From Micromonospora coxensis (lineage in GTDB: Bacteria; Actinomycetota; Actinomycetes; Mycobacteriales; Micromonosporaceae): DNA of 64,000 bases. Position 1 is the stretch's first letter. Each line of letters starts with the position of its first letter. The translations under genes and the position numbers were made by a program. The stretch lies in the NCBI RefSeq assembly GCF_900090295.1, contig NZ_LT607753.1, positions 4,216,001 through 4,280,000 of the forward strand, given 5' to 3'. The notes beneath the pieces are model-generated. The model did no database searches, was not told the origin of the DNA, and saw nothing but the letters and a program-made list of their open reading frames with translations. This document shows, piece by piece, positions 5,236-11,425 of this stretch.

Positions 5236-5264
5236 CGGGTTGTCGGGTTGTCGTACGCGGGTGG

Positions 5265-5270
5265 CAGGAT
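5265..5270 (+). promoter_or_regulatory. -10-like box for the RecB-like nuclease gene
   Basis: CAGGAT lies 7 bp upstream of GTG 5278. It is a weaker match to TAnnnT, but the spacing equals that of the other leaderless starts in this window and supports GTG 5278 over upstream TTG 5248. Confidence 0.3.
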
Positions 5271-5277
5271 CGGTGCC

Positions 5278-6168
5278 GTGCGAGCGCCCCGTCCCCGGTC
5301 CGGTCAACCCGAACAGCTCGGCTTCGAGGGCATGCCGGAGCGGCTCTTCGTCTGCACCCCCAGCAAGCTCGGGGCGTACGAGGACTGTCCGCGCCGCTAC
5401 CGCTACTCCTACGTCGACCGTCCCGCCCCGCCCAAGGGGCCGCCGTGGGCGCACAACTCCCTCGGCGCCAGCGTCCACACCGCCCTGAAGAACTGGTACG
5501 CCCTCACCCCCGACCGGCGACGCCCCGAGGCCCTCGCCGGCCTGCTCAAGGGCACCTGGGTGCGCGAGGGCTACCGGGACGACGAGCAGGAGCGCCAGGC
5601 GTACCGGCGGGCGCTCGGCTGGCTGGAGGCGTACGTCGAGACGCTGGAGCCCGGCGTCGACCCGCTCGGCGTCGAGCGGGTGGTCGCGGTGAAGACGGCG
5701 GTGCTGGCCTTCAACGGCCGCGCCGACCGGATCGACTCCCGCCCCGGCCCGGACGGGCCGGAGCTGGTCATCGTCGACTACAAGACCGGCCGCAGCGGGC
5801 TCGACGCCGACGACGCGCGCGGCTCGCAGGCGCTGGCGCTCTACGCGTACGCCGCCGAGCGGACGTTCCGCCGGCCGTGCCGCCGGGTGGAACTGCACCA
5901 CCTGCCCACCGGCACGGTCGCCGCGCACGAGCACACCGCCGACTCCCTGGCCCGGCAGCTCACCCGCGCCGAGGAGACCGCCCGCGACATCATGGCCGCC
6001 GAACGCGCGGTCACCGACGGCGGCGACCCCGACGAGGCGTTCCCGACCGTCGCCGGTCCGCGCTGCGGCTGGTGCGACTACCGCCGGGTCTGCCCGACGG
6101 GCGCGCAGGTTCCGGCGAGGGAGCCGTGGGCGGCCATGGACCGCCCGGCCGCGCCGACCGGCGACTGA
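5278..6168 (+). CDS. PD-(D/E)XK (RecB/Cas4-like) nuclease with probable Fe-S cysteine cluster
   Basis: A 296-aa protein from GTG 5278; TTG 5248 and ATG 5332 are alternatives. After the start come TPSKLGAYEDCPRRYRYSY and a helical region. The nuclease core follows: FNGRADRID supplies the first acidic residue and VIVDYKTG the D-x-K triad. The C-terminus holds CGWCDYRRVCP. One cysteine near the N-terminus (EDCPRRY) plus three C-terminal cysteines (CxxCx5C) is the arrangement that binds a 4Fe-4S cluster in AddB, Cas4 and related nucleases. No helicase domain is attached and no cas gene is nearby, so this is a stand-alone exonuclease-type protein, probably in DNA repair. Confidence 0.8.
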   Translation: MRAPRPRSGQPEQLGFEGMPERLFVCTPSKLGAYEDCPRRYRYSYVDRPAPPKGPPWAHNSLGASVHTALKNWYALTPDRRRPEALAGLLKGTWVREGYRDDEQERQAYRRALGWLEAYVETLEPGVDPLGVERVVAVKTAVLAFNGRADRIDSRPGPDGPELVIVDYKTGRSGLDADDARGSQALALYAYAAERTFRRPCRRVELHHLPTGTVAAHEHTADSLARQLTRAEETARDIMAAERAVTDGGDPDEAFPTVAGPRCGWCDYRRVCPTGAQVPAREPWAAMDRPAAPTGD

Positions 6169-6229: not shown

Positions 6230-7087
6230 TCAGCCGACCGTGGTGGTGAGGCGGGCGGCCCGCTCCTTGGCCGCCTGCTGCATCGGCCCCTCCCGCCACG
6301 TGCGCGGCAGCGCGGCCAGCGCCAGCCGCAGCGCGCGGACGCCCAGGTCGGCGGAGAGCGCGGTGGTGGGCAGCCCCAGGCCGCCGTACAACCGCAGCGC
6401 CCAGGGCGGCAGCAGCCCGAGCGCGGTGCCGGCGACGCCGAGGTACGCCCAGCGCGGCGGCCCCAGGCTCACCCCGAGCCGGGCCGGCAGGCTCAGCTTC
6501 CACGGGATCGGCGGCGCGGTCAGGAACAGGGCGGTCTCGGCCGCCTCCTTCGTCATCCGCAGCTCCGGCCGGACGGCCCGGTAGTAGTCGGCCACCTCGG
6601 CGGCGCTGCCCGGCACGTCGGCGGGGTCGAGCCCCACCAGCGCGGCGGCCCGCCGCTGCTCGTCGTAGTAGCCGTCCACCTCGGCGTCGGTCAACGACAG
6701 TCCGGCCCGGCGGGCGGTGCTGACGAACGACTCCACCTCGGTGACGTGCACCCAGCGCAGCAGGTCCGGCTCGTCGATGCGGAACACCTCGCCGGTGGCC
6801 GGGTCGGTGGCGCGCATCCGGGCGTGCAGGGCGCGCAGTCGCCGGCCGGCCGCCTCCGCCTCGGCCGTGGTGCCGTAGATGACGGTGCCGACGTAGGTGG
6901 CGGTGCGGACCAGCCGGCCCCAGGCGTCCGCGCGGTAGTTGCTGTTCTGCGCCACCCCGGCCATCGCCCGGGGATGCAGCGCCTGGAGGTAGAGCGAGCG
7001 CAGGCCGGCGACGATCAGGACCGGTTCGTCGTGCACCTTCCACGTGACCGATCCGGGACCGAAGAGGCCGAGGTCGTCGGAGTCCAC
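6230..7087 (-). CDS. MpaB-type oxygenase (DUF2236)
   Basis: A 285-aa protein. The family pattern is visible: FGPGSVTWKVHDEP near the N-terminus, LRSLYLQALHPRAMAGVA, and WVHVTEVESFV. The last corresponds to the helix bearing the histidine thought to contact haem or the metal centre in latex-clearing and mycophenolic-acid-type oxygenases. Members act as haem-dependent or predicted oxygenases; the substrate here is unknown. The frame stays open upstream, so the start is uncertain: GTG 7087 (VDSDDLGLFGPGSV) is preferred because the conserved region begins there, with GTG 7120 as an alternative. It lies 131 bp downstream of a Fur-type gene on the same strand. Confidence 0.8.
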   Translation of the reverse strand: MDSDDLGLFGPGSVTWKVHDEPVLIVAGLRSLYLQALHPRAMAGVAQNSNYRADAWGRLVRTATYVGTVIYGTTAEAEAAGRRLRALHARMRATDPATGEVFRIDEPDLLRWVHVTEVESFVSTARRAGLSLTDAEVDGYYDEQRRAAALVGLDPADVPGSAAEVADYYRAVRPELRMTKEAAETALFLTAPPIPWKLSLPARLGVSLGPPRWAYLGVAGTALGLLPPWALRLYGGLGLPTTALSADLGVRALRLALAALPRTWREGPMQQAAKERAARLTTTVG

Positions 7088-7218
7088 CGCCCAAGAGTGC
7101 CACGCGGTCCGGGCGGCCACCGTCGGGTCGGACGTCGACGGAGCGCCGGCGGTGGTCGGGGTCGGCCGTCGCCGCAGCGCCGGGCCCGGTGTCCGGCTGG
7201 TGTCGGCCGGACCGGCCC

Positions 7219-7647
7219 TCAGACGTCGGCGGAGCGTCGGGCCTGGCAGGTGGGGCAGAGGCCCCAGAAGGTCACTTCCGCCTCGTCGACCTCGAAGCCG
7301 TGCGCGGTGTTCGGGTCGAGGCAGGGGGCGCCGCCGACGGCGCAGTCGACGTCGGCGATGTGCCCGCAGCCGCGGCACACCACGTGGTGGTGGTTGTCGC
7401 CGGTCCGCGCCTCGTACCGGGCGGGGCTGCCCGCCGGCTCGATCCGCCGGGCCAGGTCGGCGCGGGACAGCGCGCCGAGGACGTCGTACACGGCCTGGGT
7501 GGAGACCGAGTCGAGGCGCTCCCGCACCCGGCGGGTGATCTCGTCGACCTCCAGGTGCCCACCGGCGGCCAGCACGTCCAGCACGGCGAGCCGCGGCCGG
7601 GTGACCCGCAGGCCCCTCGACCGGAGCAGTTCCTCGCCACTGGACAT
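7219..7647 (-). CDS. Fur family metalloregulator
   Basis: A 142-aa protein of typical Fur length. The N-terminal winged helix contains LRVTRPRLAVLDVL and the recognition segment SVSTQAVYDVLGALSRA. The dimerisation domain has the metal-binding pattern DNHHHVVCRGCGHIADVDC and a C-terminal CPTCQ, giving two CxxC pairs that would hold structural zinc. The HHH stretch is the usual regulatory metal site. The sequence is closest in style to the FurA/CatR (PerR-like) branch of actinobacteria, which respond to iron or peroxide, but no catalase gene is adjacent. The MpaB oxygenase lies directly downstream. A 222-bp intergenic region separates it from the divergent DUF2231 gene. Confidence 0.9.
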   Translation of the reverse strand: MSSGEELLRSRGLRVTRPRLAVLDVLAAGGHLEVDEITRRVRERLDSVSTQAVYDVLGALSRADLARRIEPAGSPARYEARTGDNHHHVVCRGCGHIADVDCAVGGAPCLDPNTAHGFEVDEAEVTFWGLCPTCQARRSADV

Positions 7648-9329: not shown

Positions 9330-10043
9330 TCAGCCCCGGACGACGACCGTGAAGCGGCTCCCCTCCGGCTGGCCCACCGTGCGCCGCGCCTGGTCCGGCC
9401 CGAGGGCCAGGTAGAGCGCCGACGAGCCGTCCGCGCTGTCGCCGCCCACCACGTCCAGCACCAGCGCCGCCGACGCCAGCGGCACCGCCTCGACCCCGCC
9501 GGCCGGTACGACCAGCAGGTCGACCCGCGCGCCGGGCCGGAGCACGGCGAGCGCCGCCGGCTCCGCCAACCGCACCGGTACGCCCACCGACCCGCTCGGC
9601 AGCGGCAGGGCACCCGGCCGCCCACCACCGACCCGGGTGCCGCCGGCCGCCGGCCCTTCCGTCGGCGCGCCGACGGCCGAGCGCCCACCCCCGGGCGCCG
9701 CGCCGGCCGGCCGCCCGTCCGGCTCCGTCGCGGCGACGCCCGACGGCCGGTCGGGAGCGGTGGCCGACGGGCCGGGCGCGGCCGGCCCCGGACCGGGGCA
9801 GCTCTCCCCGCTGTCCAGCACGAGCACGGCGAGCCCGAGCAGGGCGGCGACCAGACCGGCGCGCAGCAGCGTGCCGCCCGTGGGCAGGCGCGGCCGGCGT
9901 ACCGGCCCCAGCGCGCCACCCGTCCGACCGCCGGCCACGCCACCACCTCCGCCCCCGCCCGTCGGCGACGCCACCGCGACCCGTGTCGGCCGTCGCCGTC
10001 CACGGATGCGGACGCTAGGCCGACGGCAGGGGACGGTGGGCAC
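9330..10043 (-). CDS. SAF/RcpC-like single-pass protein
   Basis: About 237 aa if GTG 10043 is used; GTG 9974 in the same frame would give 214 aa, and neither has a clear ribosome-binding site. After a basic, glycine-rich N-terminus there is one transmembrane helix (LLRAGLVAALLGLAVLVL). A long Pro/Gly/Ala linker follows, and a folded C-terminal domain contains VPVRLAEPAALAVLRPGARV and VDLLVVPAGG. That arrangement resembles the SAF/RcpC (CpaB-like) domain found in Flp pilus assembly proteins and sugar-binding proteins. No other pilus gene is nearby, so a pilus role is not supported by context. Confidence 0.55.
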   Translation of the reverse strand: MPTVPCRRPSVRIRGRRRPTRVAVASPTGGGGGGGVAGGRTGGALGPVRRPRLPTGGTLLRAGLVAALLGLAVLVLDSGESCPGPGPAAPGPSATAPDRPSGVAATEPDGRPAGAAPGGGRSAVGAPTEGPAAGGTRVGGGRPGALPLPSGSVGVPVRLAEPAALAVLRPGARVDLLVVPAGGVEAVPLASAALVLDVVGGDSADGSSALYLALGPDQARRTVGQPEGSRFTVVVRG

Positions 10044-10213
10044 CCGGAGACCGAACCTGTGGACAACCGGCGGCCCTGTGGACAACTCCCGTCGGCGCGG
10101 GGGATGTGCTACCCGCTGTCCGGTTCGGCGCAGCACACCGCCGACGGACCCGCTCGGTGCGGGCGGCCGACCGTGGGTCGGGCGACCGGGCACCGGGGCC
10201 CGGCGGCGTACGA

Positions 10214-10263: not shown

Positions 10264-10614
10264 TCAGGAGGAGCTGGACGTGCTGGCGGCCGGCGTCTTG
10301 GCCGCCCCGCCGTTCGAGGAACCCGAGGCGCTGGTCGACGACGTGCTCGACGACGACGTCGAGGAGTCCGAGGAGGTGCTGCTCTCGGTCTTCGCCGGCT
10401 TGGCGGCGGTGCTGCCGCTGGTGGTCTCCGAGCCGGAGGAGCGGGAGTCGGTGCGGTAGAAGCCGGAGCCCTTGAACACGATGCCGACCGAGTTGAAGAC
10501 CTTGCGCAGCCGCCCCTCACACGTGGGGCACTCGGTCAGCGGGTCGTCAGAGAAGGACTGCACCGCCTCGAGCTGGTGGCCGCACGCGGTGCAGGCGTAC
10601 TGGTACGTGGGCAC
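10264..10614 (-). CDS. FmdB-type zinc-ribbon protein with Ser/Thr-rich tail
   Basis: A 116-aa protein from GTG 10614, which has GGAGGA 4 bp upstream. The first 45 residues are the FmdB/CxxC-CxxC ribbon (YACTACGHQLEAVQSF, then ECPTCEGRLRKVF) and NSVGIVFKGSGFYRTD. The remaining 65 residues are almost only Ser, Thr, Ala, Gly and Lys, so unstructured. FmdB proteins are putative regulatory or zinc-handling proteins whose biochemistry is unsettled. The interesting point is upstream: a CIRCE-like inverted repeat begins 28 bp before the start codon, suggesting heat-shock (HrcA) control. The 5-formyl-THF cyclo-ligase gene precedes it on the same strand. Confidence 0.85.
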   Translation of the reverse strand: MPTYQYACTACGHQLEAVQSFSDDPLTECPTCEGRLRKVFNSVGIVFKGSGFYRTDSRSSGSETTSGSTAAKPAKTESSTSSDSSTSSSSTSSTSASGSSNGGAAKTPAASTSSSS

Positions 10615-10641
10615 GTTCTCCTCCGGATCTGGCACGGCCGG

Positions 10642-10668
10642 TTGGCACTCGACGTCTTCGAGTGCCAA
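10642..10668 (-). promoter_or_regulatory. CIRCE-like operator (HrcA site) upstream of the FmdB gene
   Basis: TTGGCACTC (10642-10650), nine bases, then GAGTGCCAA (10660-10668) is a perfect 9-bp inverted repeat. It differs from the classical CIRCE consensus (TTAGCACTC-N9-GAGTGCTAA) at one symmetric position per arm and keeps the exact 9-bp spacer. It lies between the cyclo-ligase stop (10679) and the FmdB start (10614). HrcA binding is inferred from the pattern. Confidence 0.7.
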
Positions 10669-10678
10669 TGGTGCGTCA

Positions 10679-11341
10679 TCACCCCCGGATTCGTCCAGCG
10701 GACGTGTGGCGATCGACACCGGGCGCGTCACCCAGCGTACGCAGGCCGCCCGAAGGGGTTATCACGGCGCGGACCGGACGGTCGTGGGGCTGGGCGGGCA
10801 GCACGTCGACGAACTCCCCGTCGTGCAGCAGCGCCACGGTCAGCGTCGAGGCCGGCACCCGGGCCAGCGCCCGGTCGTACGAGCCGCCGCCCCGGCCCAG
10901 CCGCAGGCCCCGCCGGTCCACCGCCAGCGCCGGCACCACCACCAGCTCCGCCTCGCCGACCGCCGCGCGTCCCAGCCGGGGGCCGTCGGGCTCGCGCATG
11001 CCCCGTCCGGCGGCCACCAGCGCGTCCGGCCCGGCGTACCCGGCCCAGTCCAGGTCCAGGTCGTCGCGGAGCACCGGCAGCAGCAGCTCGCCCCCGGCGG
11101 GCAGCGCGTCGCGCAGCGCCGCCGGCAGGTCCGGTCCGCCCGGCTCGGAGCCCACCGGCACGTACGCGGTCATCCGGCGCGGGCGCAGCCGGCGTACCAG
11201 ATCGACCAGCTCGGCCAGGACGGACGCCGCGGCCCCGGCCCGCTGGTCGGCGGTGAGCGCCCGGCGGGCGGCGAGCAGCGCGACGCGGATGTCCCGCTTC
11301 GCCTCGGGTGCCGAATGCGCTTCATCAGAAAAATCCGCCAC
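10679..11341 (-). CDS. 5-formyltetrahydrofolate cyclo-ligase
   Basis: A 220-aa protein of the usual family length. The enzyme converts 5-formyl-THF with ATP to 5,10-methenyl-THF, returning a folate storage form to one-carbon metabolism in the cytoplasm. Visible motifs are the N-terminal KRDIRVALLAARRALT, LLLPVLRDDLDLDW, and the signature LGRGGGSYDRALA, which forms the phosphate/folate site. Start GTG 11341 is chosen over TTG 11359 because AGGAG (minus strand) lies 6 bp upstream. It is divergent from the diguanylate cyclase gene and probably co-directional in an operon with the FmdB gene 64 bp downstream, although the CIRCE-like site in between suggests separate control. Confidence 0.88.
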   Translation of the reverse strand: MADFSDEAHSAPEAKRDIRVALLAARRALTADQRAGAAASVLAELVDLVRRLRPRRMTAYVPVGSEPGGPDLPAALRDALPAGGELLLPVLRDDLDLDWAGYAGPDALVAAGRGMREPDGPRLGRAAVGEAELVVVPALAVDRRGLRLGRGGGSYDRALARVPASTLTVALLHDGEFVDVLPAQPHDRPVRAVITPSGGLRTLGDAPGVDRHTSAGRIRG

Positions 11342-11425
11342 GCAACACTCCTGACGCAACGTTTGTCTACCGGTCGCTCTGTGTCAGCATCGCAGGAACG
11401 GGCCGGGGACATCCGGGGGGAAGCG

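Follow-up and report, generated by a model that had tools for sequence, protein, structure and literature searches.

Why should an inverted repeat of the CIRCE type, which resembles an operator of the repressor HrcA, stand in front of a gene for an FmdB-family zinc-ribbon protein? The repeat, a perfect 9-bp inversion with a 9-nt spacer (TTGGCACTC-N9-GAGTGCCAA), lies on the minus strand of a 64-kb stretch of DNA from a Micromonospora-like bacterium that was analysed as a whole and is termed the window here; its position and those of the features around it are collected in Table 1. Our comparisons make it very probable that this repeat is an HrcA operator controlling ruc, the gene for a small, serine-rich zinc-ribbon protein that is probably an oxidation-activated holdase chaperone. 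For the organism of the window we infer that HrcA, when bound to the repeat, would cover the last part of a housekeeping-type -10 element together with the likely transcription start, and that RNA polymerase would be blocked by a repressor so placed. Heat or unfolded protein inactivates HrcA, whereupon ruc would be transcribed along with groES-groEL, a second groEL and hrcA itself.

Table 1. Features of the ruc locus in the window, with the basis of each assignment.
Feature	Coordinates	Strand	Basis
CIRCE-type HrcA operator (putative), perfect 9 + 9 bp with 9-nt spacer	10642..10668	-	repeat and same-genome sites
-10-like hexamer CACCAT (proposed; weak match), its last T being the first base of CIRCE	10668..10673	-	operator alignment
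-35-like TGGACG (weak match), 18 nt before the -10-like hexamer, in the 3' end of the cyclo-ligase gene	10692..10697	-	operator alignment
FmdB-family zinc-ribbon protein, counterpart of Ruc, 116 aa, GTG start	10264..10614	-	TIGR02605, PF09723
5-formyltetrahydrofolate cyclo-ligase gene, co-directional neighbour, start uncertain	10679..11359	-	TIGR02727, PF01812

The probable operator and its gene in the window

When up to three mismatches to the CIRCE sequence TTAGCACTC-N9-GAGTGCTAA were allowed, the repeat was the sole match in the 64-kb window, compared with a chance expectation of 0.01 (the mean over 100 shuffles, of which one yielded one match). It departs from the CIRCE sequence at two positions, both of them outer letters, and its inner GCACTC and GAGTGC are perfect. 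On the minus strand, the operator begins 10 nt after the TGA of the cyclo-ligase gene (10679-10681) and ends 27 nt before the GTG of ruc (10614), which is itself preceded by a GGAGG-type ribosome site recognised by eye. The preliminary description of this locus was right about the perfect repeat with its exact CIRCE spacer and about its place between two co-directional genes, first the cyclo-ligase and then the FmdB-type gene; it also correctly put the repeat just before the FmdB start, but its distance of 28 bp is to be corrected to the measured 27 nt. A longer mechanical open reading frame (10264-10731) reads through the repeat. A coding repeat was nevertheless rejected, because the distances to the start in the three same-genus loci (the window and two relatives) are 27, 28 and 27 nt and hence break the frame.

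The FmdB-type protein scores 75.4 bits against TIGR02605 and 60.4 bits against PF09723. The cysteines of its zinc ribbon are Cys 8, 11, 29 and 32, and the tail, as read from the translation, is serine-rich and of low complexity. Among solved structures, none was related to the protein by sequence at better than E 0.35. The frame downstream on the same strand (9330-10058) has no Pfam match. Elsewhere in the window lie, both on the minus strand and both recognised by eye, a frame for a Fur-like regulator (7219-7647) and one for an MpaB-like oxygenase (about 6230-7100), as well as a PD-(D/E)XK nuclease on the plus strand (5248-6168; PF12705).

CIRCE sites elsewhere in the genome

The genome to which the window belongs is a single contig of 6.77 Mb. 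It was searched with up to three mismatches to the same CIRCE sequence and, in addition, with the exact pattern with free ends. The first search returned five sites, that of the window among them, and the second returned one further site, at hrcA; a reversed control pattern gave 0 matches in both. Two CIRCE sites precede groES-groEL, two precede a second groEL (recognised by eye), and one is found at hrcA, the product of which matches TIGR00331 (312 bits) and PF01628. The marks of an HrcA regulon, namely hrcA together with CIRCE at groES/groEL and hrcA, are all present in this genome, and the comparison with its groES copies, which the preliminary description had proposed, found the same type of site there. 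As judged from their sequences, the CIRCE-bearing genes match the HrcA target set of M. tuberculosis given in excerpts of PMC8557902, which comprises groEL2, groES-groEL1, the rv0991c-rv0990c operon and hrcA-dnaJ2.

Ruc as an HrcA target in M. tuberculosis

We take the FmdB-type gene of the window to be the counterpart of M. tuberculosis Rv0991c (Ruc). This assignment is based on the cysteine numbers, on the pieces of the protein contained in primers from a portion of PMC7448276, on family membership, and on the Mycobacterium ruc loci that were found with the window protein. Passages of PMC7448276 describe Rv0991c as a redox-regulated chaperone that is repressed by HrcA: it is present in abundance at 37 °C when hrcA is mutated, rises at 45 °C, binds zinc via its cysteines (the mutants concern C8, C11, C29 and C32), carries a disordered hydrophilic tail and, when oxidised, prevents aggregation and helps the Hsp70 system. 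Rv0991c is likewise an HrcA target in excerpts of PMC8223512. By analogy with this counterpart, the window gene would be expected to be repressed by HrcA and induced by heat, and its protein to bind zinc and to act as a chaperone after oxidation.

The proposal made earlier for this locus, CIRCE/HrcA control and a role in heat shock or protein damage, is borne out by the conservation described below and by the experiments on Rv0991c. It knew of no FmdB gene reported under HrcA; the idea that there was none is mistaken, since passages of PMC7448276 report the repression of Ruc and the excerpts of PMC8557902 list rv0991c-rv0990c. This may be a gap of naming, because PMC7448276 does not contain the word FmdB; no paper that treats FmdB and HrcA together was found in the literature searched. 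HrcA control of ruc is already known, and since HrcA repression of this gene has been published, the window case adds to a known control; the addition is the class-wide pattern of the operator. A ruc operator outside the mycobacteria was not found in the literature searched, which covered few subscription journals and did not extend to the work on HrcA of Corynebacterium that PMC3489674 cites.

Conservation of the probable ruc operator

Among 296 genomes of the class, 291 have a counterpart of ruc. The 150 best-scoring of these genes, among which nearer relatives are over-represented, were inspected for CIRCE (at most one inner change, at most 260 nt upstream): 134 possess it, 15 lack it, and one is borderline, with both arms changed. 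The figure of 134 is a hand-made union of several pattern searches and of inspections of upstream regions, sixty of which were hand-picked, mainly from genomes without the exact pattern, and nine more of which completed the 150. It is made up of 43 exact operators within the 12-42 nt of the pattern, 7 exact ones further upstream, 67 plus 7 whose one inner change falls at position 7, and 10 f2-type operators (GCACTT or GCACTG). Conservation in orthologous promoters, on which the preliminary description had staked its reading, is seen in most cases but not in all (for instance 134/150), the surveyed genomes being related and the counts not independent events.

A CIRCE with exact inner arms lies 12-42 nt before an MPTY-type start in 70 of the 296 genomes, and the reversed control in one. 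Genome G288, whose tandem CIRCE is 79.5 kb away from ruc, was dropped from the 70; of the remaining 69, 43 match the ruc start coordinate to the base, 11 were translated to an MPTY-type start, and 15 were counted by the pattern alone. Exact-arm operators precede ruc in every one of the 30 genomes of g22, a genus whose operators are Streptomyces-like, and in all three genomes of the genus of the window. Among named loci, taken as the best 80 of at least 586 confirmed, 72 possess an operator, with exact inner arms in 54, and 8 did not qualify as bearing CIRCE; those with an operator include Micromonospora, Salinispora, Actinoplanes, Streptomyces, Frankia, Mycobacterium and Rhodococcus. Outside the class, 7 of 195 genomes of the phylum, belonging to three families, have a CIRCE 8-38 nt away from an MP-type start, which is a count of operators at such starts and not a share of ruc genes. 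Two of these seven have the diverged start MPIYEYRR, and the reversed control occurred in 2/216. One match, in G405, was discarded, as no start of ruc could be located for it and it runs, judged by eye, into an HrcA-like protein.

A missing hrcA was rejected as the cause of ruc genes devoid of CIRCE, as hrcA was found in all 60 genomes tested, including the 15 without a ruc CIRCE. In the f23 family, the HrcA model was matched by its second half alone in 16 of 30 genomes, which may bear on the lack of CIRCE there.

Some further observations concern individual lineages. The small genomes of f23 (e.g. G021, G038 and G053) have no CIRCE with exact inner arms in 30/30 cases, and in G021, G053 and G078 a form with GCAATC stands close to the match to HrcA; taken with the half-matched HrcA model, this looks as if operator recognition had changed. 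In locus L122 (G023), CIRCE occurs in tandem copies before ruc. Finally, two metagenome-assembled genomes, one labelled Bifidobacterium breve (L214) and one labelled actinobacterium (L227), share a near-identical 61-nt stretch upstream of ruc; the organism labels being very different, that of L214 may be wrong.

Proposed promoter elements

Non-redundant ruc operators devoid of a SigH-like box, 71 in all, were aligned over 60 upstream columns. The fourth base before CIRCE is an A in 60 of the 71, the highest frequency of A in any of the 60 columns (mean 16%). This A is the second position of the -10-like hexamer, the full TA of which is present in 29/71, while GGAC is commonest 28 nt upstream of CIRCE (16/71; the next commonest offsets reach 3/71). 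On the strength of this alignment, we propose that the last T of the -10 element is the first T of CIRCE. Position 7, the inner base of CIRCE that is most often changed, lies 5 nt past the -10-like element and would be a plausible transcription start, where G or A is preferred. A simple form of this start-point idea is disfavoured, however, because the -10-like A is no commoner where position 7 is a purine (24/31) than where it is C (36/40).

In M. tuberculosis, a thiol-stress sigma factor contributes strongly to the expression of this gene: the ratio of wild type to sigH mutant after heat is 40.3-fold for Rv0991c in the part of PMC4803200 that concerns it. It could be argued that in the window, too, ruc is driven by SigH/SigR and that HrcA is secondary. 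Boxes of the GGAA[TC]-N-GTT kind do adjoin the operator in other lineages, ending where CIRCE starts in Mycobacterium-type loci and overlapping into it in Streptomyces-type loci, and 18/80 named loci (the best 80 of at least 586), chance hits included, have a box with 17-19 nt spacing no more than 200 nt from the start. Yet no GGAA[TC]-N16-20-GTT was found within 300 nt upstream of ruc in the window or in two same-genus relatives, and a housekeeping-like element aligns at the operator. We hence consider it improbable that such a sigma factor is the main driver here.

Changes in the operator arms

Where a ruc operator carries a single change, the changed arm is the promoter-side one in 83 of 84 cases among the 150 genes and in 18/18 cases in the named loci (the best 80 of at least 586, fetched by protein). 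In 123 non-redundant operators, the left arm is changed in 53 and the right arm in 2, in a set that is biased by its inclusion of loci fetched with patterns fixing the right arm or both arms. A search for operators altered at position 7, which sees changes at that position alone, listed 150 sites, of which 63 come from genomes lacking a listed ruc coordinate and were left unjudged. In genomes with a listed ruc, 20 such sites lie away from ruc, and 14 of them were traced to groES or groEL. Here the gene-side arm is changed in 11 and the upstream arm in 3 (identical g22 sites), in what is a small comparison, 6/20 sites falling outside assignment. An imperfect arm is no general feature of CIRCE in the class, because some site with both inner arms exact is present in 265/296 genomes (ruc sites counted in).

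One possible reading, which we offer tentatively and with some doubt, is that over much of the class HrcA binds at ruc to a site tied to the promoter, the first T of the operator forming the end of the -10 element, and that a single promoter-side change kept in many lineages (at C7, to G or A, or at position 9) would provide a purine at the likely start point, weaken HrcA binding, or both. If this is true, ruc would leave HrcA control at another threshold than groES/groEL. The lineage of the window keeps the perfect form of the operator.

A separate peculiarity was noticed in g22 loci (L039, L151-L157) and in Streptomyces loci L228, L232, L245 and L252, many of which contain a second GAGTG in the 9-nt spacer; in these operators, a nested CACTC-N3-GAGTG lies inside CIRCE, beside the ribosome site.

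Conserved sequence or conserved pairing

An inverted repeat may also be kept for the structure of its transcript, in which case its main role would be that of a hairpin in the leader RNA of ruc, or of a terminator for the cyclo-ligase transcript, and not that of a DNA operator. The minus-strand RNA of the window folds the repeat at -26.1 kcal/mol (z -2.3), but no T run follows it as a terminator would have it, and the hairpin would be absent from the mRNA if transcription starts inside the left arm. In Streptomyces-type loci, the repeat stands directly before the ribosome site. Stem pair 3-25 shows variation in both of its bases (GC in 61 and AT in 15 of the 123 non-redundant operators), as pairing would demand; the same pair, however, is an A-C mispair in 31/123, and pair 7-21 is broken in 45/123 (43 GG, 1 AG, 1 CC) with no restoring pair. 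Since these breaks are unrestored and the inner arm letters are nearly fixed, it appears to be the sequence that is kept rather than the pairing, and a function mainly in RNA is very unlikely. As for a chance repeat without function, GC-rich DNA does yield palindromes at random, but this explanation is already contradicted by the shuffles, by the recurrence of the repeat at ruc across the class and by the reversed control, and can be given practically no weight.

Comparison with known systems

The reading of the repeat as an HrcA operator of ruc joins the label 'FmdB family' to an experimentally known chaperone, and presents the HrcA operator at ruc as widespread in the class and no mycobacterial peculiarity. 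Furthermore, the lineage forms of the operator, whether perfect, with a changed promoter-side arm, or with and without a SigH-type box, provide a testable set on how a repressor grades its targets.

The closest known system is that of M. tuberculosis. As far as the excerpted sources describe it, Ruc of that species agrees with the window protein in the zinc ribbon at Cys 8/11/29/32, the HrcA site before the gene, the other HrcA targets and a probably hydrophilic, variable tail; the MPTY start and the FKG motif, recognised by eye from the primers of the paper, are also shared. The two differ in that M. tuberculosis ruc has an overlapping SigH promoter too, whereas none was found in the 300 nt upstream of the window gene. 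In M. tuberculosis, hsp22.5 (rv0990c) is co-transcribed downstream of ruc. Most of the Mycobacterium-type loci examined carry a changed promoter-side arm (GCACTT), in contrast to the perfect copy of the window.

With the CIRCE/HrcA regulon in general, the locus has in common the letters of the operator, the 9-nt spacer, the presence of hrcA and the sites at groES-groEL, the second groEL and hrcA. The regulon is known for its chaperonin targets, whereas the target in the window is a zinc-ribbon gene, and groES and the second groEL have two CIRCE sites each where ruc has one. Finally, Hsp33 is like Ruc in having zinc-binding cysteines and in being activated by oxidation, although, according to passages of PMC7448276, the four zinc-coordinating cysteines are the only sequence similarity between the two.
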